Shown: piece by piece, positions 1 to 64,000 of the stretch
Layout of the letters: the number at the start of each line of letters is the position of its first letter
Position numbering within the stretch: the stretch's first letter is position 1
Source of the DNA: Taeniopygia guttata
Taxonomy: Eukaryota; Chordata; Aves; Passeriformes; Estrildidae
DNA: 64,000 bases
Assembly (NCBI RefSeq): GCF_048771995.1
Contig: NC_133060.1
Location: 2,041,501-2,105,500 of the forward strand
Reading direction: 5' to 3'
Notes under the pieces: model-generated
Databases searched by the model: none
Seen by the model: the letters and a program-made list of their open reading frames with translations, nothing else
Told to the model about the DNA's origin: nothing
Program-made: the position numbers and the translations under genes

Positions 1-3000
1 TTTTTGGGGGGGAAATGGGGGTTTTGGGGGGAAAAAAGTGAATTTTGAGGTGGTAAAATCAGGATTTTGGGGTTAAAAAATTGTGGATTTTGGGGGGAAA
101 AAAGGGGGATTTGGGCTAAAAAATGGGAATTTTGCGGGGGGAGTCAGGGATTTTGGGGAGAAAAAATGGGGATTTGGGGAGGAAAAATGAGAATTTTGGG
201 AAAAAAATGGGGTTTTGGGGGGAAAAATGGGGATTTGGGGGGAAAATGGGGATTTGAGGGAAAATGGGTATTTTGAAATGATAAAATGGGGATTTTGGGA
301 GAAAAAATCTGAATTTTGGGGTAAAAATGGGGATTTTAGGGAAGAAAGAGGATTTTGGGTGCGAAAATGGGGATTTTGGGCAATAACTCTGGGATTTTGG
401 GGAAGAAAAGGGGATTTGGAGGGAAAAAGGAGTTTGGGGGTTTGGGGGTTCGGTGACACAGGAACGGGCGGGGGGGGGAACCTGAGTCAGGTTTGGGGTA
501 AATCTGTGGGAAAATGGGAAAAATGGGGAAAAACGGGGATTTTGGGAATCTGCGGGGGAAAAAATGGGGGTTTTGGGGGGGAAAATGGGGATTTTGGGGG
601 GAAAAATGGGGATTTTGGGTGAAAGAATGGGATTTTTGGGGGGAAAATGGGATTTTTGGGGGGGAAAATGGGATTTTTGGGGGGGAAAATGGGATTTTTG
701 GGGGGGAAAATGGGGTTTTTGGGGGGAAAAATGTGAATTTTGAGATGGTAAAATGGGGATTTTGGGGTGAAAAGAAATGGGGATTTTGGGGTGAAAATGG
801 GGATTTTGGGTGAAAAAATGGGATTTTTGGGGGAAAAATGGGATTTTTGGGGGGAAAAATGGGGATTTTGGGGGGAAAAATGAGATTTTTGGGGGAAAAA
901 ATAGGATTTTTTGGTGAAGAAATTGGGGATTTTGGGGTGAAAAAATTCTGGATTTTGGGGGAAAAAAGGGGGATTTTGGGAAAAAAAAGGGATTTTGAAA
1001 TGAAACAATGGGGATTTTGAAATTAAAAAAATGGGGACTTTGGGTTGAAAATGGGGATTTTGGGCAATAACTCTGAGATTTTGGGGGAAAAAGGGGATTT
1101 GGATTGAAAAAGGAGTTTGGGGGTTTGGGGGTTCGGTGACACAGGAACGGCCGGGGCGGGGACACCGAGCCCAGTTTGGGGTAAATCTGCCAAAAAACGG
1201 GAAAAATGGGGAAAAACGGGAATTTTGGGTGAAAAAATGGGGGTTTTGGGGGGGAAAATGGGATTTTTGGGTGAAGAAATGTGAATTTTAGGGGGAAAAT
1301 TGAGAATTTTGAAATAATAAAATGGGGATTTTGGGGTGAAGAAACTGGGGATTTTGGGAAAAAATGGGGATTTTGGGGTGAAAATGGGGATTTTGGGGAA
1401 AAAAAATAACGATTTTTTGGGGAAAAAAAGTGGATTTTGGGTTTAAAAATGGGGATTTTGGAAAAAATACAGAGTTTTTGGGAAAAAAATGGGGATTTTG
1501 GGGGAAAAATGGGGATTTTGGGAAAAAAAAGGGGGTTTTTGAGGCAAATGGGCATTTTGGGGAAAAAATGGGGATTTTGGGGTGAAAATGGGGATTTTGG
1601 GCGAAAAAATGAGAATTTTGGGCAGAAAAAAGGGGATTTGGGGGGAAAAAGGAGATTTGGATTGAAAAAGGAGTTTGGGGGTTTGGGGGTTCGGTGACAC
1701 AGGAACGGGCGGGGCGGGGACACCGAGCCCAGTTTGGGGTAAATCTGCAGGAAAATGGGAAAAATGGGGAAAAATGGGGATTTTGGGTGAAAAAATGGGA
1801 TTTTTGGGGGGAAAATGGGATTTTTTGGGTGAAGAAATTTGAATTTTAGGGGGAAAATTGAGAATTTTGAAATAATAAAATGGGAATTTTGGGGAGAAAA
1901 ATGGGATTTTGGGTGAAAAAAAGAGAATTTTGGGCAGAAAAAAGGGGATTTGGGGTGAAAATGGGGATTTGGGGGAAAAAATAACGATTTTTTGGGGAAA
2001 AAAGGGGATTTTGGGTAGAAAATGGAGATTTTTGGGGAAAAAGGAAAATTTACAGGGAGAAAATGGGATTTTGTGGGAAAAATGGGGATTTTTGGGGGGA
2101 AAAAGTGAATTTTAGGGGGAAAATTGAGAATTCTGAAATGCTAAAATGGGGATTTTGGGGTGAAAATGGGGATTTTGGGCAATAACTCTGAGATTTTTGG
2201 GGAAAAAGGGGATTTGGATTGAAAAAGGAGTTTGGGGGTTTGGGGGTTCGGTGACACAGGAACGGCCGGGGCGGGGACACCGAGCCCGCTTTGGGGTAAA
2301 TCTGCCAAAAAACGGGAAAAATGGGGAAAAACGGGGGGAAAAATGGGATTTTTGGGGGGAAATGGGGATTTTGGGGGGAAAAATGGGGATTTTGGGGTTC
2401 AGTGCCACAGGAACAGGCTGGGGGGGGAACAGGGTCCGGTTTGGGGTAAATCTGCGGGAAAATGGGAAAAATGGGGATTTTGGGTGAAAAAAATGGGGAT
2501 TTTGGGGTTCAGTGCCACAGGAACGGGCTGGGGGGAGGGAACAGGGCCCGCTTTGGGGTAAATCTGTGGGAAAACGGGAAAAATGGGGGTTTAGGGGGGA
2601 AAAATGGGATTTTTGGGGGGAAAAATGGGATTTTTGGGGGAAAAATGGGATTTTTTGGGGGAAAAATGGGTTTTTTGGGGGAAAAATGGGATTTTTGGGG
2701 GGAAAAATGGGGATTTTGGGGGGAAAAATGGGGATTTTGGGGGGAAAAATGGGATTTTTGGGGGGAAAATGGGGATTTTGGGGGGAAAAATGGGATTTTT
2801 GGGGGGGAAAATAGGATTTTTTGGTGAAGAAATTGGGGATTTTGGGGTGAAAAAATTCTGGATTTTGGGGGAAAAAAGGGGGATTTTGGGAAAAAAATGG
2901 GATTTTGAAATGAAACAATGGGGATTTTGAAATTAAAAAAATGGGGACTTTGGGGTGAAAATGGGGATTTTGGGCAATAACTCTGAGATTTTTGGGGAAA

Positions 3001-4282: not shown

Positions 4283-4436
4283 CTGCAGCAGGTCCCCGCA
4301 GGCGGCCGCCAGCAATCCCCTCTGGCTGAAGTCGAGGAGCGCCGCCCCCGCCGGGACCCCCCACTCCTGCAGCACCCCCAGATTCCGCAGGTCGAAAATG
4401 CGAATTTTCCGGTCCAGCCCCGACGTGGCCAGCAGC
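4283..4436 (-). CDS. WDR46: WDR46 exon 10
   Basis: Acceptor CCCTGCAG; 154 bp encoding [20 protein letters not shown] through [19 protein letters not shown]; donor GTCAGC at phase 0. It matches human MATSGLDHQLKIFDLR and LAFSQRGLLVAGMGDVVN. The acceptor edge is amplified about 12 times to its right. Confidence 0.94.
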
Positions 4437-7400
4437 CTGCAGGGGAGCCAAAATCCCACAAAATTCACCCAAAATTCACCCCAAAATCTGCCCAAAATTC
4501 ACCCCAAAATCCCGCCCATCAGCCTGCAGGGGAGCCAAAATCCCACAAAATTCACCCAAAATCTGCCCAAAATGTGCCCCAAAATAATCCTAAAATCCAC
4601 CCCAAAATCCACCCCAAAATCCCACCCATCAGCCTGCAGGGGAGCCAAAATCCCCCAAAATTCAGCCCAAATTCACCCCAAAATGTGCCCAAAATCCACC
4701 CCAAAACCCACCCCAAAATCCCACCCATCAACCTGCAGGGGAGCAAAAATCCCCCAAAATTCCCCCAAAATTCACCCCAAAATGTGCCCAAAATAATCCT
4801 AAAATCCAGCCCAAAATCCACCCCAAAATCCCACCCATCAGCCTGCAGGGGAGCAAAAATCCCCCAAAATTCACCCAAAATTCACCCCAAAATCCACCCC
4901 AAAATGGACAAAAATTCACCCCAAAATCCACCCCAAAATCCCACCCAGCAGCCTGCAGGGGAGCAAAAATCCCCCAAAATTCAGCCACAATTCACCCCAA
5001 AATGTGCCCAAAATTCACCCTAAAATCCCACCCATCAACCTGCACAGGGAGCCCAAATCCCGCAAAATTCAGCCACAATTCGGCCAAAATTCGGCCAAAA
5101 TCCGCCCCAAAATTCACCCCAAAATGGACAAAAATTCACCCCAAATTCAGCCCAAAATGTGCCCAAAATCCAGCCCAAAATCCCACCCATCAGCCTGCAG
5201 GGGAGCCAAAATCCCCCAAAATTCACCCAAAATTCACCCCAAAATCCACCCCAAAATGGACAAAAATTCACCCCAAAATCCACCCCAAAATCCCACCCAG
5301 CAGCCTGCAGGGGAGCAAAATTCCCCAAAATTCAGCCAAAATCGGGCAAAAATCTGCCCCAAAATGTGCCCAAAATTCACCCCAAAATCCCACCCAGCAG
5401 CCTGCAGGGGAGCCAAAATCCCCCAAAATCCCACCCAAAATTTGGCCAAAATACGCCCCAAAATCCACCCCAAAACCTCCCAAAATTCACCCCAAAATCC
5501 CACCCATCAGCCTGCACAGGGAGGCAAAAATCCTGCAAAAATCACCCAAAATTCACCCCAAAATCTGCCCCAAAATTCAGCCAAAATGGACAAAAATTCA
5601 CCCCAAAATCCACCCCAAAACCTCCCAAAATTCACCCCAAAATCCCACCCATCATCCTGCACAGGGAGGCAAAAATCCCCCAAAATTCAGCCAAAATCTG
5701 GCAAAATCTGCCCAAAATCCACCCCAAATTCATCCCTAAATCGGCCCAAAATCCACCCCAAAATCCCTCCCATCAGCCTGCAGGGGAGCCCAAATTCCAG
5801 AAAAATCAGCCAAAATCGGGCAAAAATCCACCCAAAATCCACCCAAAATTCACCCCAAAATCCCCCCAAATCCATGGAAATCCCCCCAAATCCACAGAAA
5901 TCCCCACAAAATCCAACAAAATCCCACCAAAATCCAATAAAATCCCACCAACATCCACCCCAAAATCCCTGCAAATCTGTGGAAATCCCACCAAATCCAT
6001 GAAAATCCAACCAAACCCAGCGAAATCCCCAAATCCACGGAAATCCCACCAAATCCACCAAAATTCCGCACAAAATCCAACAAAATCCAACAAAATCCCA
6101 CCAAAATCCATGGAAATCCACCCCAAAAGCCCCAAATCCATGGAAATCCCCCCAAAATGTCCCCAAAATCCCATCAAATCCATGGAAATGTCCTTGAAAT
6201 CCCCATTAAAAATCCCCCAAATCCATGGAAATCCCCACAACATCCAACAAAATTCCCCACAAAATTCAACAAAATCCCACCAAAATCCATCGAAATCCCC
6301 CAAAATCCCCCCAAATCTGTGGAAATCCCCCCAAAATCCAATAAAATCCCACCAAAATCCACCCCAAAATCCCTCCAAATTCATGGAAATCCAACCAAAA
6401 TCCATGGAAATGCCCCCAAAATCCCACCAAATCCATGGAAATCCAACCAAATCCACGGAAATCCAACCAAATCCATGGAAATCCAACCAAAATCCAACAA
6501 AATTCCCCACAAAATCCAACAAAATCCCACGAAAATCCTACCAAATCCATGGAAATCCCACAAAATCCAACAAAATTCCCCTCAAAATCCAACAAAATCC
6601 CACCAAAATCCCCCCCAAATCCATGGAAATCCCCCCAAAAAGCCCCAAATCCCTGGAAATCCCCCCAAATCCCCCCAAATTCATGGAAATGCCCCCAAAA
6701 TCCCACCAAATCCATGGAAATCCCACCAAATTCCAACAAAATTCCCCACAAAATCCCACCAAAATCCAACAAAATTCCCCACAAAATCCAACAAAATCCC
6801 ACCAAAATCCATCGAAATCCACCCCAAAATCCCTCCAAATCCATGAAAATCCAACCAAACCCAACGAAATCCCCAAATCCATGGAAATCCCACCAAAATC
6901 CAATAAAATTCCCCACAAAATCCAACAAAATCCCAAGAAAATCCTACCAAAATCCGTGGCAATCCCCCCAAAAGCCCCAAATCCATGGAAATGCCCCTAA
7001 AATTCCACGAAATCCATGGAAATCCAACCAAACCCAGCGAAATCCCCAAATCCCCAGAAATCCCACCAAAATCCAACAAAATTCCCCACAAAATCCAACA
7101 AAATCCCACCAAATCCCACCAAAATCCATGGAAATCCCCCCAAAAAGCCCCAAATCCATGGAAATCCCCCCAAAAAGCCCCAAATCCATGGAAATCCCCC
7201 CAAAATGTCCCCAAAATCCCATCAAATCCATGGAAATGCCCCTGAAATCCCCATCAAAAATCCACCAAATCCATGGAAATGCCCCCAAATCCATGGAAAT
7301 CCCCACAAAATCCAACAAAATCCCACCAAAATCCCTCCAAATCTGTGGAAATCCCACCAAAATCCAATAAAATCCCACCAAAATCCAACAAAATCCTACC

Positions 7401-10400: not shown

Positions 10401-13400
10401 GGGGAAAAAAAAGTGAATTTTGAGGGAAAAATGAGAATTTTGAAATTAAAAAATCGGGATTTCGAAATAAAAAAATGGGGATTTTGGGGTGAAAATGGGG
10501 ATTTTGGGTGAAAAATGGGGCTTTTCGGAAATAACCCTGGGATTTTGGAGGACAAAAGGGGGACTTTTGGATGAAAAAATGGGATTTTTGGGGGGAAAAA
10601 TAAGAATTTTGAAATTATAAAATAGGGATTTTGAAAAGAAGAAATGGGGATTTTGGAGTGAAAATGGGGATTTTGGGTGAAAAATGGGGATTTTGGGAGG
10701 AAAAATGGGATTTTTGGGCGGAAAAATGGGAATTTTGAAATTAAAACATGGGAATTTTGGGGTGAAAATGGGGATTTTGGGGAAGAAAGAGGATTTTGGG
10801 GGAAAAATGGGGATTTTGGGGAAAAAAAATGGGGATTTTGGGCAATAACCCTGGGATTTTGGGGGAAAATGAGAATTTTGAAATGATAAAATGGGGATTT
10901 TGAAATGAAAAAAGGGAACAAGAAAAAACATCAAAAAAAACCCCAAAAAATCCCCCCCCCCCAAAAAAAATTGGGGTTAAAAGGGCGAAAATTCAAAACA
11001 ATTTCGAGGAAACGTCCCCAAAAAGATTCGGTGGAATTTCCCCAAAATTTTCTCCCTCAGATCCAAGAGGATTTTCCTGAAATCCAAGGAAATCTCACAA
11101 ATCCAAGGGGGAAGTTCCAAATTCCCTCAGAAACCCCCAAAATCTGAAGAATTCCCCCCAAGTCCCAATGGGAACCCCCAAAATCCAATAAAATCTCCCA
11201 AATTCAACGAGGAACTCCCAAAATCCGATAAAATCTCCCAAATTCAACCAGGAACCCCAAAATCCGATAAAATATCCGTTATTTCCCATTTCCCCCCGTT
11301 ATTTCCCATTTCCTCCAGTTATTTCCCGTTTCCCCCCGTTATTTCCTGTTCCCCTTAAGTTTCTCATTGTTATTTCCCGTTTCCCCACGTTCATCCCATT
11401 TCCAGGTGATTTCCCCCCGTTTTTCCCGTTTCCTGGTGGTTTCTCCCTGTTTATTTCCCATTTCCTCCTGTTATTTCCCATTTCCTCCCGTCATTTCCCA
11501 TTTCCTCCTGTTATTTCTTATTTCCCCCCATTTTTTCCCATTTTCCGGCAGTTTCTCCCATTTTTTTCCCATTTCTCCCCTTTTTTTCCCCGTTTCCCCC
11601 CTGTTTTTACTGTTTCTGGGCAGTTCCCCCCTGTTATTTCCCGTTTCCCCCATTATTTCCCATTTCCCAGCAGTTTCTCCCCATTTCCCCCCGTTATTTC
11701 CCGTTCTCGGTCGGTAATTCCCCATTTCCCATCGGTAATTTCCCGTTCCCGGTTGGTTATTTCCCGTTTCCACTGCGTTATTCCCCATTCCCAGGCAGTT
11801 ATTTCCCATTCCCGGTTGGTTATTTCCCGTTCCCAGGCGGTTATTTCCCATTCCCGGTCGGTTATTCCCCGTTCCTGGACGGTTATTTCCCGTTCCCGGA
11901 CGGTTATTCCCTGTTTCCGGGCGGTTATTTCCCATTTCCAGGCGGTTATTTCCCATTCCTGGTTGGTTATTTCCCGTTCCCGGTCGGTTATTCCCCATTC
12001 CCGTGAGGTTATTCCCCGTTTCTGGGCGGTTATTCCCCATTTTTGGGCGGTTATCCCCCATTCCCGGTCAGTTATTCCCCATTTCCAGTCAGTTATTCCC
12101 TGTTCCTGGTCGGTAATTCCCGTTTCCCGTCGGTAATTCCCGTTCCTGGCCGGTTTCCCCCCATTATTTCCGATCGGTGATTCCCGTTCCCAGCCGGTTT
12201 CCCGTCAGTAATTCCCATTTCCCGGTAATTTCCCGGTGCTGACCGTTGGCGTGTCCGAGCAGGACGTTGGCGCTGGCGGGGCTCTGGGCCATGGCGGCCG
12301 CGCGGCCGCAGCGCAAACGGAGCGAGGACACCGCCCGGCCCTCGGACACGTCCAGGAAACGCAGCACGCCGCGATCGCTCTGCCGGGAAATAACGGGGAA
12401 TAACGGGAAATAACGGGAAATAACGGGAAATAACGGGGGAAACAGGAAACGCAGCGCCGACACCGCCCGGCCCTCGGACACGTCCAGGAAACGCAGGGTG
12501 CCGCGATCGCTCTGCCGGGAAATAACGGGGAATAACGGGGGAAACAGGAAACGGAGCGAGGACACCGCCCGGCCCTCGGACACGTCCAGGAAACGCAGCA
12601 AACCGCGATCGCTCTGCCACGAAAATGGGTCAAAATGCGTGGAAACGGGAAAAACAGCGAAGAAATGGGAAATAACGGGGTCGGAACACGCAGAAACGGG
12701 AAATAACAGGGTCAGAACACGCCAAAATGGGAAAATAACAGGAAAAAATGGAAAATAATGGAGGGGTCAGAATGTGTGGAAACGGGAAATAACGGGGTCA
12801 GAACGGGCGGAAACAGGAAAAACGGGGTCAGAATGCGCAGAAATGGGAAATAACGGGGGGAAAAACGGGGAAAAATGGGGTCAGAACGGGGGGAAATGGG
12901 AAATAACGGGGTCAGAACGGGGGGAAATGGGAAATAACGGGGGGAAACACAGGGTCAGAATGCACCGAAACGGGAAATAACGGGGTCAGAATGGGCTGGA
13001 ACGGGAAATAACGGGGGGAAACGGGGTCAGAACGTGTGAAAACAGGAAACGCAGCACGCCCCCGGCACTCTGCCGCAAAGGGAAATAACGGGGGAATAAC
13101 GGGAAATAACGGGAAATAACAGGGAATAACGGGAAATAACGGGGAATAACGGGAAATAACGGGAAATAACGGGAAATAACGGGAAATAACGGGGAATAAC
13201 GGGAAATAACGGGAAATAACGGGAAATAATGGGAAATAACGGGAAATAACGGGGGGGAAACGGGAAATAACGGGGTCAGAACGGGGGAAAACGGGAAATA
13301 ACGGGGGGGAAACGGGGAAAAACAGGGTCAGAATGCACCGAAACGGGAAATAACAGGGTCAGAAGGCGCCGAAACGGGAAATAACGGGGGGAAAAACGGG

Positions 13401-16400
13401 GTCAGAACGCGCAGAAACGGGAAAAACGGGGGGAAACGTGGAAACGGGAAAAACGGGAAAAAATGGGGGGAAAAACACGGGGTGAAACCGTGGGGAAACG
13501 GGAAAAACATGGGGTGAGACCGCGCAGAAACGGGAAAAACAGCGGGGAAACGGGAAATAACGGGAGGGAAATGGGGTGAGACCACACGGAAACGGGAAAA
13601 AAAATGGGGGAAAAATGTGGAGAAATGGGAAAAACATGGAGGGGAAACGAGCAAAATGGGGGGGAAAACATGGAGAAATGGGAAAACCAGGAAAAACGGG
13701 GGAAAACTGCAGGGAAATGGGGTGGAACAGGAAAAAATGGGGTGAAACGGGGGAGAAATGGGAAAAAATGGGGGGAAATGGGAAAACATCGGGAAAAGGG
13801 GGAAAAACGGGGGGAAAATGGGAAAAAAGGGGAGGAAATGAGGAGAAACAGGAAAAAAACGGGGGGAAACAGGAAAGAACGGGGGGAAATGAAGAAAAAT
13901 GGGGGAAACAGGAAAAAATGGGGGGAATGGGAAAAAACAGGGAGAAACAGGAAAAAATGGGGGGGAAACATCAGGAAAATGGGAAAAAAACGGGGGAAAT
14001 AGGAAAAAAAAGGGGGAAAATGGGAAAGAAAAGGGGGGAAATGGGGGAAAGTGCAGGAAAATGGGAATAAATGGAGGGGAAAATGGGGCAAAACAGGAAA
14101 AAATGGGAAAAAAATCGGGGGAAACAGCGGGGAAATGGGAAAAAATGAGTGAAAATGGGAAAAAACAGGGAAAATGGGAAAAAAGGGGGAAAATAGAGAG
14201 GAAACAGGAAAAAATGGGGTGAAATGGGGAAAAACAGGGGGGAAATGGGGGGGAAACAGGAAAAACGTGGAAATGCGGGAAAAATGGGGAGGAACAGAAA
14301 TTCCAGGAGCAGAATTCCCAGGAAATTCTGGAGCACCCAAAAAATGAGCCAGAAATGGGCAAAATCCATGGGAAAATCAGCCAAAATGGTTAAAAAGTTG
14401 CTAAAATTGGTGAATTTTGGCCAAAATCGCCCCATTTTTTCCCAAATTATGGGGTTTTTGAGCAGGAATTGGCAGGGCAGGAATTCCTGGAGCAGAATTC
14501 CCAGAAAATTCCTCCCAAAATCAGCCATAAAGGGGCAAAAATCAGCTGAAAATGGCAAATATATGACCAAAAATGGCGATTTTTGCCCAAATTTGCTCAT
14601 TTTTTCCCCAAATTTTGTGTTTTTTCCCCAGCACTGACCACAGCAGCGAGCAGGAAGTGCCAGGGCAGGAATTCCAGGTGCAGGATTCCCAGAAAATTCC
14701 TCCCAAAATCAGCCAAAAATGGGCAAAATCCATGGAAAAATAGGCCAAGATGGGTAAAAAAATGTCGATTTTTGCCCAAATTTGCTCATTTTTTCCCCAA
14801 ATTTTTGGTTTTTATCCCGGACTGACCACGGCAGCGAGCAGGAAGTGCCAGGGCAGGAATTCCAGGTGCAGAATTCCCAGGAATTCCGACAGCATCCAAA
14901 AAATGACCCAGAAATGGGCAAAATCCATGGAAACATCAGCCAAAATGGTTAAAAAGTTGCTAAAATCGGTGAATTTTGGCCAAAATCACCCCAATTTTTC
15001 CCTAGTTTTGGGGTTTTTGAGCAGGAATTTGCAGGGCAGGAATTCCAGGCGCAGAATCCCAGAAAATTCCTCTGAAAATCAGCCACAAAGGGGTAAAAAT
15101 CAGCCGAAAATGGCAAATACATGGCTAAAAATGGCGATTTTTGCCCAAATTTGCTCATTTTTTCCCCAAATTTCAGGTTTTTTTCCCCAAATTGTGTGTT
15201 TTTCCCCAGCACTGACCACGGCAGTGAGCAGGAAGTGCCAGGGCAGGAATTCCAGGTGCAGGATTCCCTGGAATTCTGGCAGCATCCAAAAAATGACCCA
15301 AAAAATGGTAACTAAAGAGACTAAAAATGGCGATTTTTGCCCAAATTTGCTCATTTTTCCCCCAAATTTCGGGTTTTTATCCCGGACTGACCACGGCAGC
15401 GAGCAGGAAGTGCCAGGGCAGGAATTCCAGGAGCAGAATCCCAGAAAATTCCTCCCAAAATCACTCAAAAACCATGGAAAAATCGGCCAAGATGGGTAAA
15501 AAAATGGCGATTTTTGCCCAAATTTGCTAATTTTTTCCCCAAATTTCGGGTTTTTATCCCAGCACTGACCACGGCAGCGAGCAGGAAGTGCCAGGGCAGG
15601 AATTCCAGGTGCAGAATTCCCAGGAATTCCGGCAGAAGCCAAAAAATGACCCAGAAATGGGCAAAATCCATGGAAAAATCAGCCAAAATGGTTAAAAAGT
15701 TGCTAAAAACGGTGAATTTTGGGAAAATCGCCCCAATTTTTCCCAAATTTTGGGGGTTTTGAGCAGGAATTGGCAGGGCAGGAATTCCAGGTGCAGAATC
15801 CCAGAAAATTCCTCCGAAAATCAGCCACAAAGGGGCAAAAATCAGCCGAAAATGGAAAATACATGGCTAAAAATGGTGATTTTTGCCCAAAATCGGCCGT
15901 TTTTTCCCCAAATTTCGGGTTTTTTCCCCAGCACTGACCACGGCAGCGAGCAGGAAGTGCCAGGGCAGGAATTCCAGGTGCAGGATTCCCTGGAATCCCG
16001 GCAGCATCCAAAAAATGACCCAGAAATGGGCAAAATCCATGGAAACATCAGCCAAAATTGGTGAATTTTGCCCAAATTTGCTCGTTTTTTCCCCAAATTT
16101 TGGGTTTTTCCTTCGACTGATCACGGCAGCCAGGAGCAAGTGCCAGGGCAGGAATTCCAGGTGCAGAATCCCAGAAAATTCCTCCGAAAATCAGCGACAA
16201 AGGGGCAAAAATCAGCCGAAAATGGCAAATATAAGGCTAAAAATGGTGATTTTTGCCCAAAATTGGCCGTTTTTTCCCCAAATTTCAGGTTTTTTTCCCC
16301 AAATTTTGTGTTTTTCCCCCGACTGACCACGGCAGCGAGCAGGAAGTGCCAGGGCAGGAATTCCAGGTGAAGAATCCCGGAAAATTCCTCCCAAAATCAC

Positions 16401-39446: not shown

Positions 39447-39477
39447 CCCGGCATTCCCAAATTTCCTCTTTTTTCCC

Positions 39478-49180
<9,703 letters not shown>

Positions 49181-52200: not shown

Positions 52201-55200
52201 TTTGGCACCAAATTCCCTGAGGTTGGACCCAAATTCTCTGCAATTGTCCCCAAAATGTCCCCAAATCCCCAAAAATGTCCCCAGGAACCCCAAAAGTGAC
52301 CCCAGGTCCTCCCAAAGTGTCCCCAAGTGTCCCCAAGGTGTCCCTGATGTCCCCAAAGTGTCACCAAACACCCAAAAATGCCCCAAAACAGCCTCAAAAT
52401 GCCCCAAAACGTCCCCAAATCCCCAAAAATTGTCCCCAAAAATTGTCCCCAAGTGTCCCCAGTCTGTCCCCAATTGTCCCCAAGGGCGCAATCCCCGAAA
52501 ATCCCCAAATTTGGCACCAAAATCCCCAAATTTGGCACCAAATTCCCTGAGGTTGGACCCAAATTCTCTACAATTGTCCCCAAAATGTCCCCAAATCCCC
52601 AAAAATGTCCCCAGGAACCCCAAAAGTGACCCCAGGTCCTCTCAAAGTGTCCCCAAAGTGTCCCCTGGGTGTCCCCAGGGTGTCCCAGTGTCCACAAAGT
52701 GTCACCAAACACCCAAAAATGCCCCAAAACCGCCTCAAAATGCCCCAAAATTTCCCCAAATCCCCAAAAACTGTCCCCAAAAATTGTCCCCAAAAACTGT
52801 CCCCAAGTGTCCCCAAGTGTCCCCAGGGTGTCCCCAAGGTGTCCCCAAGTGTCCCTGAGTGTCCCCAAGTGTCCCCGAGTGTCCCTTGACGCCTCAGACA
52901 TCCGGGAGAGTGAGAACATCGCGGAGCTGCACAACCAGATCAGCGCCTGCGACGCCATCCTCGAGGTCAGCAATGTCCCCAAGTGTCCCCAAGTGTCCCC
53001 AGATGTCCCCAGATGTCCCCAGATGTCCCCAGGGGTCACCAAGGGTCACCAGGGGTCACCAGGGGTCACCAGGGGTCCCCAAAGTGTCACCAGGGGTCAC
53101 CAAGTGGCACCAAAATGGCACAAAATGGCACAAAAATGGTCCCAAATGGCCCCAAATGGTGCCTGAGTGGCCTCAATTGTCCCCAAAATGTCACCAGGTG
53201 TCACCAAATGGCCCCAGGTGGCACCAAGTGGCCCCAAGTGTCCCCAAAATGGCCCCAAGTGGCACCAAAATGGCCCCAAGTGGCCCCAAAATGGCCCCGA
53301 ATGTCCCCAGGTGTCACCAAATGTCCCCAGGTGTCCCCAGGTGTCACCAAATGGCCCCAAAATGGCCCCAAATGGCCCCAAACGGCACCTGAGTGGCCTC
53401 AATTGTCCCCAAAGTGTCCCCAGGTGTCCCCAAATGTCCCCAAATGTCCCCAAGGGTCACCAGGGGTCACCAGGGATCCCCAAAGTGTCCCCAGGGGTCA
53501 CCAAGTGGCACCAAAATGGCACAAAAATGGTCCAAAAATGGTCCCAAATGGCCCCAGAGTGGCCTCAATTGTCACCAAATGTCCCCAGGTGTCCCCAGGT
53601 GTCCTCAAAGTGTCCCCAAGTGTCCTCAGGTGTCACCAAATGTCACTAAAATGGCCCCAAATGGCCCCAGAGTGGCCTCAATTGTCCCCAGGTGTCCCCA
53701 GGTGTCCCCGAATGGCCCCAGGTGGCACCAATTGGCCCCAAGTGTCCCCAAAATGTCCCCAAGTGGCACCAAAATGTCACCAAGTGGCACCAAAATGGCC
53801 CCAAATGGCCCCAAACGGCACCTGAGTGGCCTCAATTGTCCCCAAAGTGTCACCAGGTGTCCCCAAATGTCCCCAAGGGTCACCAGGTGTCCCCAGGTGT
53901 CACCAAGTGTCCCCAAAGTGTCCCCAGGGGTCACCAAGTGGCACCAAAATGGCCCCAAATGTCCCCAGATGTCCCCAAATGTCCCCAAATGTCCCCAAGG
54001 GTCACCAAGTGTCCCCAAAGTGTCCCCAGGGGGCACCAAGTGGCACCAAAATGGCCCCAAATGGCACAAAAATGGTCCCAAATGGCCCCAAGTGGCACCT
54101 GAGTGGCCTCAATTGTCCCCAAAGTGTCCCCAGGTGTCACCAAATGGCCCCAAGTGGCACCAAAATGGCACCAAGTGTCCCCAGGTGTCCCCAAAATGTC
54201 CCCAAATTGTCCCCCAATGTCCCAAATTGTCCATAAATGTCCCCAATTGTCCATAAATGTCCCCAAATTGCCCATAAATGTCCCCAAACTCCCCTAAAAA
54301 AGCCACAAAATGCCAAAAAAATCCCTCCTAAAACCCCTAAAAAATGCCCTAAAATGGCCCAAAAAAGCCCCAAAACCCCAGGAAAAAAATCCAAAAAAAA
54401 TCCCCAAAAATCCCCAAGTTGTCCATAAATGTCCCCAAACTCCCCTAAAAAAGCCACAAAATGCCAAAAAAATCGCTCCTAAAATCCCTAAAAAATGCCC
54501 TGAAATTGGCCAAAAAATGCCATAAAACGGCCAAAAAAAGCCCTAAAATGGCCAAAAAAAGCCCCAAAACCCCAGGAAAAAAATCCCAAAAAAGCCCCAA
54601 AATGTCCCAAAATTGTCTCCAAATGTCCCCAAACTGTCCCCAAATGTCCCTAAAACCCCCTTAAATAAGCCACAACATCCCCTAAAAATACTCGTAAAAC
54701 CACTAAGAAAATGCCTAAAAATTCCCAAAAAAAGCCAGAAAATTGTCAAAAAAAGCCCCAGAACTGTGGGAAAAAAATCCCCAAAAAACCCAAAAAAATC
54801 CCTAAATTGTGCATAAATGTCCCCAAACTCCCCTAAAAAAGCCACAAAATGCCAAAAGAATCGCACCTAAAACCCCTAAAAAATGCCTTAAAATTGGCCA
54901 AAAAATGCCATAAAATGGCCAAAAAAAGCCCTAAAATGGCCAAAAGAAGCCCCAAAACCCCGGGAAAAAAATCCCAAAAAATCCCAAATTGTCCCTAAAT
55001 GTCCCAAATTGTCCCCAAACTGTTTGCAGCGCATGGAGGCGATGCTGGGCGCGTTCCAGAGCTCGCTGAGCTGGGAGATCCCAGCCCCAAAACGGCCCCA
55101 AATGTCCCCAAAGTGTCCCTTAAGTGCCCCTGAATGTTCCCAAATTGTGCCTAAATGTCCCCAAATTGTCCATAAATGTCCCTAAATTGTCCATAGATGT

Positions 55201-58200
55201 CCCCAAATTGTCCCATAAAAAAAGCCACAAAATGCCAAAAAAATCGCTCCTAAAACCCCTAAAAAATGCCATAAAATTGTCAAAAAAAGCCCCAAAACCC
55301 CAGGAAAAAAATGCCAAAAATTCCCAAAAAATCCCCAAATTGTCCCTAAATGTCCCCAAATTGTCTATAAATGTGCCCAAACTCCCCTAAAAAGGCCACA
55401 AAATGCCAAAAAAATTGCTCCTAAAACCCCTAAAATTGGCCAAAAAATGCCATAAAATTGCCAAAAAATGCCCTAAAATGGCCAAAAAAAGCCCCAAAAC
55501 CCCGGGAAAAAAATCCCAAAAAATCCCAAATTGTCCCTAAATGTCCCCAAATTGTCCCCAAATGTCCGCAGCGCATGGAGGTGATGCTGGGCGCGTTCCA
55601 GAGCTCGCTGAGCTGGGAGATCCCAGCCCCAAAACGGCCCCAAATGTCCCCAAAGTGTCCCCAAAGTGTCCCCAAAATGTCCCCAATGGGTCCATAAATG
55701 TCCCCAATTGTCCTTAAATGTCCCCAAATTGTCCCTAAATGTCCCCAAATTGTCCCCAAATTGTCCATAAATGTCCTCAAATTGTCCCATAAAAAAGCCA
55801 CAAAATGCCAAAAAAATCACTCCTTAAACCCCAAAAAAATGTCCTAAAATTTGCCAAAAAATGCCATAAAATGGCCAAAAAATGCCCTAAAATGACCAAA
55901 AAAAGGCCCAAAACCCCGGGAAAAAAAATCCCCAAATTGTCCCTAAATGTCCCCAAATGTTTCTAAATGTCCCCAAATTGTCCATAAATGTCCTCAAACT
56001 CCCCCAAAAAAGCCACGAAATCCCCTAAAAATCGCTCCTAAAACCCCTAAAAAATGCCCTAAAATTGCCAAAAAAAGCCCCTAAACCCTGGGGATAAAGC
56101 CCCAAATTGTCCCTAAATGTCCCCAAATGTCCATAAATGTCCCCAAATGTCCCTAAATGTCCCCAAATGTCCCTAAAACCCCTTAAATAAGCCACAACAT
56201 CCCCTAAAAATACTCGTAAAACCACTTAGAAAATGCCTAAAAATTCCCAAAAAAAGCCAGAAAATTCCCAAAAAAAGCCCTAAAATGGCCAAAAAAAGCC
56301 CCAAAACCCCAGGAAAAAAATCCCAAAAAATCCCCAAAAAATTCCAAATTGTCCCAAATTATCCCCAAATTTTCCGCAGCGCATGGAGGCGATGCTGGGC
56401 GCGTTCCAGAGCTCGCTGAGCTGGGAGATCCCAGCCCCAAAACAGCCCCAAAATTGGCCCTAAAGTGTCCCCAAATTGTCCCCAAATGTCCCCAATTGTC
56501 CCCAAAGGGTCCATAAATGTCCCCAAATTGTCCATAAATGTCGTCAAACTTCCCGAAAAAAATGACAAAATGCTAAAGAAATCACTCCTAAAACCCCTAA
56601 AAAATGCCGTAAAATGGCAAAAAAAAAGCCCTAAAATGGCCAAAAAAAGCCCCAAAACCCCAGGAAAAAATCCCAAATTGTCCCCAAATATCCCCAAATG
56701 TCCCCAAACTGTTCCCAAATATCCTCAAATCTCCATAAACAGCCCCAAAACCGCCTAAAAGTGCTCCTAAAACCCAAAAAAAATGCCTTAAAATTGGCCG
56801 AGCAATGCCAGAAAATGGCCAAAAAAAGCCCCAAAACCCCGGGAAAAAAATCCCAAAAAATCCCAAATTGTCCCTAAATGTCCCCAAATTTTCCATAAAT
56901 GTGTCCAAACTCCCCTAAAAAAGCCTCAAAATGCCAAAAAAATCACTCCTAAAACCCCCCAAAAAATGTCCTAAAATTGGCCAAAAATGCCCTAAAATGG
57001 CCAAAAAAAGCCCCAAAAGCCCGGGAAAAAATCCCAAAAAATCCCCAAAAAACCCCAAATTGTCCCTAAATGTCCCAAATTGTCCCCAAACTGTTTGCAG
57101 CGCATGGAGGCAATGCTGGGCGCGTTCCAGAGCTCGCTGAGCTCGCTGAGCGGGGAGATCCGGGCGCTGCAGGGCCAGGCCGGGGCCATGAACCTGCGGC
57201 TGCAGAACCGGCGCCGCGTCCGCGAGAGACTCGGGGGGCTGCTGGAGCAGCTGGTGGTGCCCCCCGACATGATCAGGTGGGAAATTTGGGAAAAAAATGG
57301 GATTTTGGGAAAAAAAATGGGAATTTTGGGAAAAAAAATGGGATTTTTGGAGGAAAAAATGAGATTTTTTTGGGGAAAAAATGGGATTTTTGGAGCAAAA
57401 AATGGGGTTTTGGGAGCAAAAAATGGGATTTTTTTGGGGAAAAAACCTGAAGCAAATGGGGTTTGAAATTCAGAAATGGGATTTGAGGAGAGAATTCCCA
57501 AAAAAATGGGAATTTGGGAGAAAAAAATGGGAATTTGGGGAGAAAAATGTGCTTTTTGGAGAAAAAAATGGGATTTTTGTACAGTCAGGGAGGTCCAGAG
57601 AGACTCGGGGGCTGCTGGAGCAGCTGGTGGTGACCCTGACATGATCAGGTGGGGAAATGAGAATTTTGGGAAAAAAATTGGGATTTTGGGGAAAAAAATG
57701 GGGATTTTAGGAGAAAAAATGGAATTTTTGGGAGAAAAAAAGAGATTTTGGGGGGGAAAATGGGATTTCTGGAGCAAAAAATGGGATTTTTTTGGGGGAA
57801 AAACCTGATGTAAATGGGGCTTGAAATTGAAAATGGGATTTGAGGAGAGAATTCCCAAAAAATGGGAATTTGGGAGAACAAATAGGATTTTTGGAGAAAA
57901 AAATGGGATTTTTGTACAGTCAGGGAGGTCCATGAGAGGCTCGGGGGGTTCCTGGAGCAGCTGGTGGTGACCCCGACATGATCAGGTGGGAAAAACGGGG
58001 ATTTGGGGAAAAAAATGGGATTTTTGGGAAAAAAAATGGGAATTTTGGGAGAAAAAAATGGGATTTTTGGGAGAAAAATGGGATTTTTGGAGGAAAAAAT
58101 GGGATTTTTTCTTCAGCCAGGGCTGGGGGCTGCTGGAGCAGCTGGTGGTGACCCCGACATGATCAGGTGGGGAAATGGGATTTGGGGGGAAAAACGGGGA

Positions 58201-61200
58201 TTTTGGGAAAAAAATGGGATTTTGGGGAAAAAAACTGGATTTTTGGGAGAAAAAATGAGATTTCGGGACCAAAAAATGCAGTTTTGGGAGAGGAAAATGG
58301 GATTTTTGGGGGAAAAAAACCTGAAGCAAATGGGGTTTGAAATTGAAAATGGGATTTGAGGAGAGAATTCCCAGAAAAATGGGAATTTGCGGAAAAAATG
58401 GGATTTTTGGAGAAAAAAATGGGATTTTTGTGCAGTCAGGGAGGTCCAAAGAGACTCGGGGGCTGCTGGAGCAGCTGGTGGTGACCCCGACGTGATCAGG
58501 TGGGAAAACAGCAAAAAATGGGATTTTGGGAAAAAAACTGGGGATTTGGGGAAAAAAAACGGAGATTCTGGGAGAAAAAATGGCATTTTTGGGAGAAAAA
58601 ATGGGATTTTTGGGAGCAAAAATGAGATTTTTTGGGGAAAAAATGGGGTTTTGGGAGCAAAAAATGGGATTTTTTGGGGAAAAAACCTGATGTAAATGGG
58701 GTTTGAAAGTGAAAAATGGGATTTGAGGAGAGAATTCCCAAAAAAATGGGAATTTGGGAGAAAAAAATGGGATTTTCGGAGAAAAAAATGGGATTTTTGT
58801 ACAGTCAGGGAGGTGCAAAGAGACTCGGGGGCTGCTGGAGCAGCTGGTGGTGACCCCGACATGATCAGGTGGGGAAATGGGGATTTGGGGGGAAAAACGG
58901 GGATTTGGGGAAAAAAATGGGAATTTTGGGGGAAAAATGGGATTTTTGGGAGAAAAAATGAGATTTTTAGAGAAAAAAATGGAATTTTGGGAGCAAAAAA
59001 TGGGATTTTTTGGGGAAAAAACGTGACACAAATGGGGTTTGAAATTGAAAAATGGGATTTGAGGAGAGAATTCCCAGAAAAATGGGAATTTGGGAGAAAA
59101 AAACGGGATTTTGGGGAGAAAAATGGGATTTTTGGAGAAAAAAATGGGAGTTTGGAGAAAAACATGGGAATTTGGGAGGAAAAATGGGAATTGGGGAGGA
59201 AAAAATGGGAATTTGGGAGGCAAAAATGGGAATTTGGGGAGAAAAAAATGGGAATTTGGGACAAAAAAAATGGGGTTTGGGGAAAAAAATGGAATTTTTT
59301 AACAAAAAAATGGGATTTTGGAAAAAAAACAGGATTTTGGGGCGAAAATTAAAAAAAAAATGGGATTTGGGGATGAAGGAATGGGGTGTGGGAAGGAAAA
59401 AAAATGGGATTTGGGAGAGAGAATTCCCAAAAAAATTGAGTTTGAGGAGAAAAAATGGGATTTGAGGGCCAAAATGGGATTTTGGGGGAAAAAATGGGAT
59501 TTTGGGATGGAAAAATGGGATTGTTCTGCAGGCAGGAATTTCCCTGGGATTTTGTGAGATTTCAGTGGAATTTCCATGGAATTTTATGGGATTGAAATGA
59601 GATTTTTATGGGATTTAAATGAGATTTTTATGGGATTTGATGGGACTTTCATAGGGTTTTATGGGATTTTCCTGGAATTTCCAGGGGATTTTTATGGGAT
59701 TTTTTTTGGGATTTTCATGGAATTTTATGGGATTTCCATGGAATTTTATGGGATTTCAATGGGATTTTGTGGGATTTTTATGGGATTTTCATGAAATTTC
59801 CTTGGGATTTCCATGGAATTTCAATGGGATTTAATGGGATTTTAATGGGATTTCAGTCAGATTTCTATGGGATTTTTTTGGATTTTTTTGGATTTTCATG
59901 GAATTTTATGGCATTGCAATGGAATTTCCATGGAATTTTTTGAGATTTCAATGGGATTTTATGGGATTTTAATGGAATTTCAATGGGATTTCAATGGAAT
60001 TTCCATGGAATTTCCATGGAATTTTATGGGATTTCAATGGAATTTCAATGGGATTTTAATGGGATTTCAACAGGGATTTTAATGGGGATTTTATGGAATT
60101 TTCATGGAATTTCAATGGGATTTCAATGGAATTTTATGAGATTTTCATGGAATGTCAATGGGATTTTGTGGGATTTCAATGGCATTTCAGTGGGATTTTC
60201 CCATTTTTCCATGGATTTTTTTCCATGGATTTTTCCCATTTCCCGATGTATTTTGCTGGACTTTCCCCACGATTTTGACGGATTTCAATGGAATTTTCCC
60301 ATTTTTGACCTTTTTTTCTCCAGTTTTTCCCCATTTCTCCATCCCCAGGGTGACCCTGGAGGCGTCACCGGAGTCCCGGCACGGCTGTGGGATTTCCATG
60401 GGATTTCAGTGGGTTCTGCGGGAAAATTCCCATTTTTCCATGGATTTGGATGGAAAATTACCATGTTTTGTTGGATTTTGATGGAAAATTCCCATTTTTT
60501 GATGGATTTTGATGGAAAATTCCCATTTTTCTATGGATTTTGATGGAAAATTCCCATTTTCTGATGGATTTTGATGGAAAATTCCCATTTTCTGATGGAT
60601 TTTGATGGAAAATTCCCATTTTTGATGGATTTTGATGGAAAATTCCCATTTTTCGATGGATTTTGATGGAAAATTTCCATTTTTGATGGATTCTGATGGA
60701 AAATTCCCATTTTTCAATGGATTTTGATGGAAAATTCCCATTTTCTGATGGATTTTGATGGAAAATTCCCATTTTTTGATGGAAAATTCCCATTTTTCAA
60801 TGGATTTTGATGGGAATTTTCCCATTTTTTGCCGTTTTTACCCCATTTCTCCACCCCCAGCGTGATCCTGGAGGCGCCGGTGACCTCCCCCGAGTTCCTG
60901 GAGCAGCTGCGGGAGCTGGATGGGATTTGATGGGATTTGATGGGATTTTAATGAAATTTTAATAGAATTTCTCCATTTTTTGATGGAATTTAATGGGAAT
61001 TTTCCCGTTTTTTGCTGTTTTTACCCCATTTCTCCATCCCCAGCATGATCCTGGAGGCGCCGGTGACCTCCCCCGAGTTCCTGGAGCAGCTGCGGGCGCT
61101 GGTCGGGATTTGATGGGATTTCAATGGGATTTTGATGGGATTTTGATGGAAAATCCCCATTTTTCGATGGATTTTGATCGGAATTTTCCCGTTTTTTGCC

Positions 61201-64000
61201 GTTTTTACCCCATTTTCCATGCCCAGCGTGATCCTGGAGGCCCCAGTGACCTCCCCCGAGTTCCTGGAGCAGCTGCGGGCGCTGGACGGGATTTGGTGGG
61301 ATTTGATGGGATTTTAACGGGATTTTAACGGGATTTTAACGGGATTTTAATGGAATTTCCCCATTTTTCGATGGATTTTGATGGGAATTTTCCCATTTTT
61401 TGCCGTTTTCACCCCATTTTCCATCCCCAGCGTGATCCTGGAGGCGCCGGTGACCTCCCCCGAGTTCCTGGAGCAGCTGCGGGCGCTGGTCGGGATTTGA
61501 TGGGATTTGATGGGATTTCAATGGAATTTTAATGGGATTTTGATGGAAAATTCCCATTTTTTGATGGATTTTGATGGGAATTTTCCCATTTTTTGCCGTT
61601 TTTTCCCCATTTTCCATGCCCAGCGTGATCCTGGAGGCGCCGGTGACCTCCCCCGAGTTCCTGGAGCAGCTGCGGGCGCTGGACGGGATTTGATGGGATT
61701 TGATGGGATTTCAATGGGATTTTAATGGGATTTTAATGTAATTTCCCCATTTTTTGATGGATTTTGATGGGAATTTTCCCGTTTTTTGCTGTTTTTACCC
61801 CATTTTCCATCCCCAGCGTGATCCTGGAGGCGCCGGTGACCTCCCCCGAGTTCCTGGAGCAGCTGCGGGCGCTGGACGGGATTTGATGGGATTTAATGGG
61901 ATTTTAATGGGATTTTGATGGAAAATTCCCATTTTTCGATGGATTTTGATGGGAATTTTCCCATTTTTTGCCGTTTTTACCCCATTTTCCGTCCCCAGCG
62001 TGATCCTGGAGGCGCCGGTGACCTCCCCCGAGTTCCTGGAGCAGCTGCGGGCGCTGGACGGGATTTAATGGGATTTTAATGGGATTTTAATGTAATTTCT
62101 CCATTTTTCAATGGATTTTGATGGGAATTTTCCCATTTTTTGCTGTTTTTACCCCATTTCTCCATCCCCAGCGTGATCCTGGAGGCGCCGGTGACCTCCC
62201 CCGAGTTCCTGGAGCAGCTGCGGGCGCTGGACGGGATTTGATGGGATTTGATGGGATTTCAATGGGATTTTAATGGAAAATTCCCATTTTTCGATGGATT
62301 TTGATGGGAATTTTCCCATTTTTTGCCGTTTTTACCCCATTTTCCATGCCCAGCGTGATCCTGGAGGCGCCGGTGACCTCCCCCGAGTTCCTGGAGCAGC
62401 TGCGGGCGCTGGACGGGATTTGATGGGATTTAATGGGATTTTAATGGGATTTTAATGTAATTTCTCCATTTTTCGATGGATTTTGATGGGAATTTTCCCA
62501 TTTTTTGCCGTTTTTACCCCATTTTCCATCCCCAGCGTGATCCTGGAGGCGCCGGTGACCTCCCCCGAGTTCCTGGAGCAGCTGCGGGCGCTGGACGGGA
62601 TTTGATGGGATTTAATGGGATTTTAATGGGATTTTAATGTAATTTCTCCATTTTTCGATGGATTTTGATGGGAATTTTCCCGTTTTTTGCTGTTTTTGCC
62701 CCATTTCTCCATCCCCAGCGTGATCCTGGAGGCGCCGGTGACCTCCCCCGAGTTCCTGGAGCAGCTGCGGGCGCTGGTCGGGATTTGATGGGATTTCAAT
62801 GGGATTTAATGTAATTTCTCCATTTTTTGATGGATTTTGATGGGAATTTTCCCATTTTTGATGGAATTTTCCCATTTTTTCCCGTTTTTTCCCCATTTTC
62901 CGTCCCCAGCGTGATCCTGGAGGCGCCGGTGACCTCCCCCGAGTTCCTGGAGCAGCTGCGGGCGCTGGACGGGATTTAATGGGATTTCAATGGGATTTAA
63001 TGTAATTTCTCCATTTTTTGATGGATTTTGATGGGAATTTTCCCGTTTTTTCCCGTTTTTACCCCATTTTCCATGCCCAGTGTGATCCTGGAGGCGCCGG
63101 TGACCTCCCCCGAGTTCCTGGAGCAGCTGCGGGCGCTGGACGGGATTTGATGGGATTTCAATGGGATTTTAACGGGATTTTGATGGAAAATCCCCATTTT
63201 TCGATGGATTTTGACGGGAATTTTCCCATTTTTTCCCGTTTTTACCCCAATTTTCCATCCCCAGCGTGATCCTGGAGGCGCCGGTGACCTCCCCCGAGTT
63301 CCTGGAGCAGCTGCGGGCGCTGGACGGGATTTGATGGGATTTGATGGGATTTCAATGGGATTTTAATGTAATTTCTCCATTTTTCGATGGATTTTGACGG
63401 GAATTTTCCCGTTTTTTGCCATTTTTCCCCCATTTTCCATGCCCAGCGTGATCCTGGAGGCGCCGGTGACCTCCCCCGAGTTCCTGGAGCAGCTGCGGGC
63501 GCTGGATGGGATTTCAATGGGATTTAATGAAATTTTAATGTAATTTCTCCATTTTTCAATGGATTTTGATGGGAATTTTCCCGATTTTTGCTGTTTTTAC
63601 CCCATTTCTCCATCCCCAGCGTGATCCTGGAGGCGCCGGTGACCTCCCCCGAGTTCCTGGAGCAGCTGCGGGCGCTGGACGGGATTTGATGGGATTTAAT
63701 GGGATTTTAATGGGATTTTAATGTAATTTCTCCATTTTTCGATGGATTTTAATGGGAATTTTCCCATTTTTTGCTGTTTTTACCCCAATTTTCCATGCCC
63801 AGCGTGATCCTGGAGGCGCCGGTGACCTCCCCCGAGTTCCTGGAGCAGCTGCGGGCGCTGGACGGGATTTGATGGGATTTGATGGGATTTGATGGGATTT
63901 TGATGGAAAATTCCCATTTTTTGATGGATTTTGACGGGAATTTTCCCGTTTTTTCCCGTTTTTACCCCAATTTTCCATGCCCAGCGTGATCCTGGAGGCC
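49259..64000 (+). CDS. VPS52: VPS52, GARP/EARP tethering complex subunit; 3' end outside window
   Basis: Known role: shared subunit of the GARP and EARP complexes that tether endosome-derived vesicles at the trans-Golgi network and recycling endosomes. Exons in the window: 49259-49297 (end uncertain), 49422-49494, 50029-50081, 50198-50273, 52898-52965 and 57101-57276. All join in phase, giving 161 codons. Landmarks match human VPS52: VHIQENLEDALVQEAL, RQYSRQVELELQEVE, ESENIAELHNQISACDAIL and MLGAFQSSLSSLSGEIRAL. The predicted coiled-coil N-terminal region is present. The N-terminus before VHIQ is about 37 residues versus about 58 in human. Exon 7 (SVILEAPVTSPEFLEQLRAL) is seen only as tandem truncated copies from 60861; the complete one must lie beyond 64000. 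Confidence 0.93.
49422..49494 (+). CDS. VPS52: VPS52 exon 2
   Basis: Acceptor GTGGCGCAG; 73 bp encoding VAAMEAPLEAELEEELELEG then AELD plus one base; donor GTGAGA. It is acidic like the N-terminus of human VPS52, and joins to give LDVHIQ. Confidence 0.85.
49495..50028. repeat. VPS52 intron 2: GC-box-like and T/C-rich repeats
   Basis: 49495-49620 repeats GGGGGCGTGGCC/GGGGCGGGGCCATGG, which resembles Sp1/KLF sites. 49625-49800 holds TTAATGCTTAATGAGG units. 49870-50020 is TTTTTCCCCA repeat leading to the exon 3 acceptor. Confidence 0.75.
50029..50081 (+). CDS. VPS52: VPS52 exon 3
   Basis: Acceptor TTTTCCCCAG; 53 bp; HIQENLEDALVQEALQT; donor GTGAGT. Human has VHIQANLEDELVKEALKT. Confidence 0.95.
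50198..50273 (+). CDS. VPS52: VPS52 exon 4
   Basis: Acceptor TTTCAG; 76 bp; GVDLRQYSRQVELELQEVER then ASIQD plus one base; donor GTATCC. The 116-bp intron before it is C/A-rich with no other content. Confidence 0.95.
50274..52897. repeat. VPS52 intron 4: six-copy long-unit array
   Basis: Each unit holds a run of AAATCCCCAAATTTGGCACC, the landmark CTGAGGTTGGACCCAAATTC (50446, 50839, 51366, 51760, 52217, 52547), then GTGTCACCAAACACCC and GTGTCCCC stretches. Length differences (330-527 bp) come mainly from differing numbers of the inner 20-bp unit. No exon copies were recognised. Confidence 0.88.
52898..52965 (+). CDS. VPS52: VPS52 exon 5
   Basis: Acceptor GCCTCAG; 68 bp; IRESENIAELHNQISACDAI then LE; donor GTCAGC. 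The split Tyr codon restores DYIRESEN, as in the human DYIQESEN block. Confidence 0.95.
52966..54220. repeat. VPS52 intron 5, first part: GTCACC/GTGGCCCC repeat
   Basis: GGTGTCCCCAAATGTCCCCA and AAATGGCCCCAAGTGGCACC units occur, with CCTGAGTGGCCTCAATTGTC recurring near 53163, 53391, 53550, 53668, 53820 and 54100. No gene was seen. Confidence 0.85.
54221..57100 (+). repeat. VPS52 intron 5, second part: long units with three partial exon 6 copies
   Basis: Long units of AAAAAAGCCACAAAATGCCA and AAAGCCCCAAAACCCC type. Copies of the exon 6 acceptor and first part start at 55030, 55572 and 56380. Each reads RM(E)(A/V)MLGAFQSSLSWEIPAP then runs into CCAAAACGGCCCC intron with no donor. The true exon follows at 57101. 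Confidence 0.93.
57101..57276 (+). CDS. VPS52: VPS52 exon 6
   Basis: Acceptor TGTTTGCAG; 176 bp; RMEAMLGAFQSSLSSLSGEI, then RALQGQAGAMNLRLQNRRRV and RERLGGLLEQLVVPPDMI plus two bases; donor GTGGGA. It is the only complete copy; three truncated 5' copies precede it and five truncated 3' copies follow. Confidence 0.95.
57277..59530 (+). repeat. VPS52 intron 6: G/A-rich repeat with five partial exon 6 donor copies
   Basis: GGGATTTTTGGGAGAAAAAA units carry five copies of the exon 6 end, roughly from the ETLGGLLEQLVV codons to the donor, ending at 57648, 57985, 58166, 58499 and 58868. They read GLLEQLVV then GTGACCC in place of GTGCCCCCC, which shifts frame, but all keep ATCAG/GTGGG. Confidence 0.93.
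59531..60860. repeat. VPS52 intron 6: ATGGGATTT and TGGATTTTGATGG minisatellites
   Basis: 59560-60180 has TTTATGGGATTTCAATGGAA units. 60350-60400 has a strongly diverged exon 7-like copy (GTGACCCTGGAGGCG). 60420-60830 has TGGAAAATTCCCATTTTT units of about 32 bp. Confidence 0.85.
60861..64000 (+). repeat. Tandem array of 18 truncated VPS52 exon 7 copies, about 183-bp period
   Basis: Copies start after CCCAG at 60861, 61044, 61227, 61431, 61624, 61817, 61999, 62172, 62354, 62536, 62719, 62910, 63081, 63265, 63447, 63620, 63803 and 63985 (cut by the window edge). Each keeps a good acceptor with polypyrimidine tract and reads SVILEAPVTSPEFLEQLRAL in the phase required after exon 6. Each then passes into GGGATTTGATGGG repeat and a stop with no convincing donor. 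The exon parts are nearly invariant. Confidence 0.96.

Follow-up and report, generated by a model that had tools for sequence, protein, structure and literature searches.

Why do the introns of three neighbouring genes contain tandem copies of the edges of their own exons, and does such a pattern call for a process that starts at exon-intron junctions? We addressed this question by computational analysis of 64,000 nucleotides of zebra finch (Taeniopygia guttata) DNA (NC_133060.1, positions 2,041,501 to 2,105,500, assembly GCF_048771995.1), hereafter the window. A previous reading of the letters (the sequence-only reading) had described repeat units holding an exon edge, its splice site and adjoining intron in WDR46, RPS18 and VPS52, and had attributed them to a local, junction-started process.

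Genes and repeats of the window

Exons were placed from protein matches, with borders fixed by their translation and the splice sites. The WDR46-RPS18-VPS52 block, which in birds we take to lie on a dot chromosome near the MHC, is arranged in the window as follows:

4,283-34,630, minus strand: WDR46, continuing past the left window end; ten coding exons in the window (human WDR46 solved-structure match, tblastn, splice sites)
39,478-49,188, minus strand: RPS18; six exons (RPS18 solved-structure match, splice sites)
49,256-64,000, plus strand: VPS52, continuing past the right end; first six coding exons, with exon 6 (V6) beyond the right end (Pfam Vps52_CC)

VPS52 gave no match among solved structures; it did match Pfam Vps52_CC, and the translation of the joined VPS52 exons was identical to the T. 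guttata protein P0165 at 145/145 residues. Tandem Repeats Finder assigned 93.6% of the intron sequence and 9.0% of the coding exon sequence to tandem repeats. Between WDR46 and RPS18 lies an intergenic stretch that lacks splice junctions; it was as repetitive as the introns (92.5% by the same program).

Four introns (34483-34600, 39554-39648, 49298-49421 and 50082-50197) measure only 95-124 bp among introns of up to 5 kb, and exon-edge copies were looked for at their eight edges and none was found. Three WDR46 introns (1-3030, 7758-10902 and 16662-19316) are filled by largely the same motif, about 20 bp long (GGGATTTTGGGGAAAAAATG and its variants), so some arrays look not strictly local. Motifs of the G4 type, with four runs of G or of C, occupy about 24% of the window, and one mononucleotide shuffle of the window contained zero G-type G4 motifs. 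On the coding strand, the mean purine fraction was 0.57 in the donor-side kilobase versus 0.43 in the acceptor-side kilobase (Wilcoxon p=0.007; 15 introns > 400 bp from all three genes with both ends in the window), and in several introns this strand bias flips once mid-intron.

Exon-edge copies and their position

We counted 41 edges in the window and one more for the exon to its left, 42 in all; eight of them belong to the short introns and the other 34, beside expanded introns, were eligible. Exon-edge copies were detected at 13 of these 34 edges (eight in WDR46, two in RPS18 and three in VPS52). Each copy joins 8-68 bp of exon, across the splice site, to neighbouring intron; the copies stand in tandem and number about 110 in total, summed over different scans. 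The first scan used 24-bp exon ends on both strands, with the 11-bp end of RPS18 exon 1 left out as too short; the second used intron-plus-exon edges by BLAST, and the third searched individual edges by pattern. The arrays are listed below.

440..3140, minus strand: WDR46 next exon (left of the window), acceptor edge, 7 copies (pattern; peptide edge doubled in Passerculus P0047)
4437..5830, minus strand: WDR46 exon 4,283-4,436, acceptor edge, 10 copies, 8 bp of exon (BLAST, pattern)
12380..13110, minus strand: WDR46 exon 12,244-12,379, acceptor edge, 2 copies with about 65 bp of exon and 1 short copy
14295..16505, minus strand: WDR46 exon 16,506-16,656, donor edge, 8 copies, 61-68 bp of exon
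19319..21009, minus strand: WDR46 exon 21,010-21,114, donor edge, 7 copies, 24 bp of exon
21115..22620, minus strand: WDR46 exon 21,010-21,114, acceptor edge, 17 copies, 18 bp of exon
22640..25970, minus strand: WDR46 exon 25,971-26,032, donor edge, 15 copies, about 20 bp of exon
29050..29160, minus strand: WDR46 exon 31,047-31,134, donor edge, single copy, 29 bp of exon, about 1.9 kb away
42864..43274, minus strand: RPS18 exon 3 (43,275-43,361), donor edge, 2 copies, 49 bp of exon
45390..47030, minus strand: RPS18 exon 2 (45,291-45,389), acceptor edge, 16 copies (strict pattern), 15 bp of exon
54954..57100, plus strand: VPS52 exon 5 (57,101-57,276), acceptor edge, 3 copies, 43 bp of exon
57277..58950, plus strand: VPS52 exon 5 (57,101-57,276), donor edge, 5 copies, 52-59 bp of exon
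60820..64000, plus strand: VPS52 exon 6, acceptor edge, 17 complete units and 1 cut by the window end, about 61 bp of exon each (exon sequence matches P0165)

The claim of at least ten such arrays in the three genes was therefore correct. The placement that it described, acceptor edges upstream and donor edges downstream of their exon, was also observed: every copy sits on its own edge's side of the source exon. For the WDR46 next exon and VPS52 exon 6, this side was inferred from the direction of the transcript, because both source exons lie outside the window. For the WDR46 exon outside the left end, the pattern lacked specificity (> 100 low-complexity matches, 116 on the opposite strand), and the seven copies were chosen by the exon sequence that follows the pattern. 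Tandem register was confirmed in the VPS52 exon 6 array, whose units are spaced 171-204 bp apart over 17 units.

By our own tally, the 34 eligible edges divide into 13 with exon copies, 9 with arrays that end between -7 and +2 bp from the edge, and 12 with neither, where arrays end farther away or none was found. Only one array ended between -8 and -70 bp of an edge. Of 23 long-period intronic arrays (at least 60 bp), 15 overlap an edge, and in 10 the edge lies within the unit by a strict definition.

With the settings of the published exon-stuttering screen, 23 matches of at least 42.1 bits were obtained, all 23 in the intron adjoining the source exon; at the same settings and threshold, there were 0 matches in distal introns and 0 in one mononucleotide shuffle. 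The 30 matches of at least 30 bits lay 0-9 bp from the exon border, except one VPS52 exon 5 match at 38 bp. Several weaker candidates were set aside. Fifteen matches elsewhere at the 5-edit limit were read as chance or low complexity (8 of them for the 21.1k WDR46 donor edge, and 7 of these 8 inside the previous exon's donor-flank array). Weak BLAST matches with exon bases were left uncounted, namely three at the 34.4k donor (65-68% identity), one at the VPS52 exon 1 donor (63%), two of 7-8 bp at the VPS52 exon 4 donor and another two of 4-5 bp, as were off-site BLAST matches at many edges.

Origin and turnover of the arrays

The side rule holds because a tandem duplication that ends inside an exon leaves an intact exon on that side. 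An intron-to-exon duplication would give intron, exon start, intron, exon start and the rest of the exon, with donors as the mirror image. The protein would be altered by a duplication that stays within an exon, takes in an entire exon or runs from one exon to another. Tandem duplication together with intact genes thus yields the side rule, and the rule carries no information on where duplications started.

To ask how often edges would be captured by chance, we simulated random duplications without junction preference on these exon lengths and removed gene-breaking events. Among tolerated duplications of 73-183 bp, edges were captured in 78-100% with 110-bp introns, 51-91% with 200-bp introns, 29-45% with 400-bp introns and 3-4% with 4-kb introns; the median exon part was 34-47 bp in introns of at least 200 bp. 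Compared with the 10-15 of 23 arrays counted above, these values indicate that a founding intron length of a few hundred bases is sufficient. The edge fraction fits chance for founding introns of 200-400 bp and misfits it for kilobase introns, and a junction preference is not required for the edge arrays. Short founding introns are suggested by small contigs that carry much of these genes in other birds, although these may be short-read assemblies with collapsed repeats: VPS52 occupies 6,130 bp for 505 aa in Pandion and 10,176 bp for 659 aa in Pelecanoides, and 265 aa of WDR46 lie on a 6,468 bp contig in Acanthisitta versus 26.9 kb for the equal span in zebra finch.

We consider it probable that the WDR46-RPS18-VPS52 block represents exon stuttering in a songbird, produced by chance capture of edges by tandem duplication combined with selection. 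Once-short introns would have grown by tandem duplication of pieces of mostly about 70-370 bp, and the arrays would have kept changing in size and sequence. A founding duplication that started in the intron and ended slightly inside the exon, or the reverse, would create a unit with an edge and a splice site; such an array would be constrained to that side while the exon stays whole, and selection would remove duplications that break or repeat an exon. Physically, the duplications may have come from slippage during replication or from unequal exchange, and G-rich repeats may have favoured them. The short length of the founding introns, the filtering by selection and the physical process are all inferred. 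We read array ends flush with an exon as a sign that repeats have filled the intron until they met sequence under selection; a junction process could claim them as well. Matches of 3-4 bp at breakpoints occurred in single arrays, where the chance level is high and the copies have diverged, and no microhomology signature was established; edit distances judged by eye showed no trend along the distance from the exon, barring the 26.0k array. In that array, 14 of the 15 copies share two changes that are missing from the copy nearest the WDR46 exon (25826-25850); this one copy must have arisen later than the rest or traded sequence with the exon.

The copies appear to be turned over quickly or to communicate with their exon. 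At the 16.6k WDR46 edge, 8/8 copies encode FLPW, against FLPY or FLPF in seven models from other songbirds; at VPS52 exon 5, the acceptor copies carry LGAF (3/3) and the donor copies LEQL (5/5), states absent in Lonchura, Poecile, Haemorhous and Catharus. Across these three edges, 16/16 copies thus match the zebra finch exon in amino-acid states that the other songbirds checked do not have. Some of the same edges are nevertheless amplified in songbird gene models of other families. These two observations imply fast turnover or exchange with the exon: either the same edges were struck repeatedly, or old arrays were kept alike with their own exon.

Relative to the true edge, the copies differed at 112/1962 positions of the exon part and 98/1689 of the intron part; this equal divergence is as expected of a passive unit. 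Among copies, the exon part was less variable than the intron part in 5/6 arrays, which a passive unit does not predict, with copies chosen by exon match in every compared array except VPS52 exon 6. In that one array free of such choice (17 consecutive units, 60862-63986), the exon-derived 60 bp showed 8/1020 differences, gap-free, and the rest of the unit 116/2029.

The splice dinucleotide is kept in 59/61 copies of nine arrays, so the copies are possible decoys, as the sequence-only reading had suggested. Exon repetition, which it also raised, is unlikely: each copy has a single edge, and in all three introns with both kinds the donor copies precede the acceptor copies, so that no two copies can frame a new exon. 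This order also accounts for the copies being tolerated. In another set of 61 testable copies (nine arrays), 6 stay in open frame when taken as alternative splice sites; on these grounds the copies are not expected to act as functional repeated exons, spliced without a frame break. Differences between copy and exon by codon position (1/2/3) were 24/646, 36/659 and 52/657, and differences among the copies alone were 20/821, 19/836 and 39/856, with one array giving 20 of the 39. Coding constraint on the copies was considered and set aside; the third-position excess is partly change in the true exon and was not taken as selection. Gene models P0047, P0013, P0001 and P0004 (Passerculus, Passer, Haemorhous and Cyanistes) contain repeated or read-through edge copies, and such songbird models look like annotation errors due to edge arrays.

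How, then, do other accounts of the arrays compare? If R-loops, stalled forks or breaks at exon-intron junctions started the duplications, edges would be preferred origins, and the copies at 13 of 34 eligible edges together with the 9 further arrays that end a few bases from an edge would follow directly. Random placement in kilobase introns would yield only the few per cent of edge captures simulated above, and the purine-rich donor side and pyrimidine-rich acceptor side look as if each half had grown from its own flank, in a window about a quarter of which consists of G4-type motifs. However, the exon-side ends of the units are scattered over 8-68 bp within exons, the side rule is geometrically forced, the intergenic stretch is equally repetitive, and chance gives the same pattern from short founding introns. 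We therefore regard a junction start as unlikely. What stands of the earlier proposal is that the arrays are real, local, inclusive of exon edges and present in all three genes; the side rule is no evidence for its junction-started process, and the step from pattern to junction is not supported, given an unbiased simulation that yields similar edge fraction and exon depth if the founding introns were short, and a junction-free intergenic stretch filled with repeats. Taken together, the observation was correct and striking, and nothing in the evidence demands a process that starts at junctions, although such a process keeps a small probability.

Quite unlikely, in our judgement, is that edges and intronic copies co-evolve by sequence exchange, with the arrays as a store of variants able to overwrite exon ends. 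Hints in this direction are the zebra finch states in all 16 copies of three edges and the almost uniform exon part of the VPS52 exon 6 units. Zebra-finch-only replacements at songbird-conserved sites were also more frequent in copied edges than in uncopied coding sequence of WDR46 (8/44 vs 6/137, p=0.006), and VPS52 gave 2/40 vs 1/108 (p=0.18), no clear difference. Against exchange, a single copied WDR46 exon start (12315-12379) holds 7 of the 8 WDR46 changes, and sites variable among other songbirds are no denser in copied WDR46 edges (34/78 vs 122/259). Recent birth of the arrays equally explains the zebra finch states in the copies; the hints allow exon-copy exchange and do not establish it. 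That selection has retained the copies, as regulated decoys for splicing or as alternative ends of exons, is very unlikely, although nearly all of those examined keep GT or AG, predicted Haemorhous, Passer, Cyanistes and Passerculus proteins enter or repeat edge copies, and the VPS52 exon 6 units are nearly uniform in their exon part. Few copies would leave an open frame if used, one base is missing and another substituted, relative to the exon, in all 5 donor copies of VPS52 exon 5, copies differ from the exon edge equally often in exon and intron parts, and the foreign proteins are gene models and not proven transcripts. An assembly artefact, with repeats collapsed or over-expanded, is least likely of all. 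Highly repetitive sequence is hard to assemble and our case is drawn entirely from the assembly, but substitutions distinguish the copies from each other and some of these edges are multiplied in the gene models of other songbirds. In chicken, the comparable PHF8 case is reported as checked in raw nanopore reads (Hron et al., PMC12954441).

Comparison with known systems

The arrays share with intronic minisatellites and VNTRs, of which the ABCA7 intron VNTR (PMC5954066) is reportedly an example, tandem intronic units, variable copy number and possible effects on splicing. Unlike these, the present arrays involve almost all expanded introns of three genes, and many of their units take in a real splice site together with coding bases. 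Introns can also be created when exon segments that carry splice signals are duplicated in tandem. That process likewise involves tandem duplication across coding sequence and reuse of splice signals; here, in contrast, introns that were already present become longer, none is added and the exon keeps its form.

The closest relative is exon stuttering, described on chicken dot chromosomes in early 2026 (Hron et al., Genome Biol Evol; PMC12954441). That paper reports 236 introns in 115 genes, 190 of them on dot chromosomes, which is 3.4% of the 5,572 annotated dot-chromosome introns; copies lie ≤1 base from the exon border in over 90% of cases, and exon parts measure 20-187 bp (median 36) (PMC12954441). 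Its authors leave the mechanism undecided, and in its main text 'passerine', WDR46, RPS18 and VPS52 do not occur (PMC12954441). As in chicken, a lateral exon part with its splice site is tandemly copied in the adjacent intron while the exon stays intact, and the introns are almost entirely simple repeat, in contrast to the coding exons. At the sequence level the zebra finch case is therefore exon stuttering, in that the copies occupy adjacent introns and reach the exon border, the introns are filled with repeats and the exons are intact. It differs from the chicken paper in concerning a songbird, three adjacent genes and 13 of 34 eligible edges, the chicken value of 3.4% coming from a stricter screen.

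Exon stuttering is thus known in kind, and the songbird genes, the local density and some of the tests are new here; for WDR46, RPS18 and VPS52 this holds within the open-licence PMC literature searched, in which PMC12954441 was the one paper on exon stuttering to emerge. Gene predictors already appear to convert edge copies into coding sequence in several songbird annotations. The analysis also separates two questions, edge capture with its side rule, which are matters of geometry and selection, and exon-copy exchange, which if real would matter for the evolution of these genes. An instability that was described in chicken only recently is here found in a songbird model species as well, and three adjacent genes whose expanded introns are nearly all repeat show the density that it can attain.
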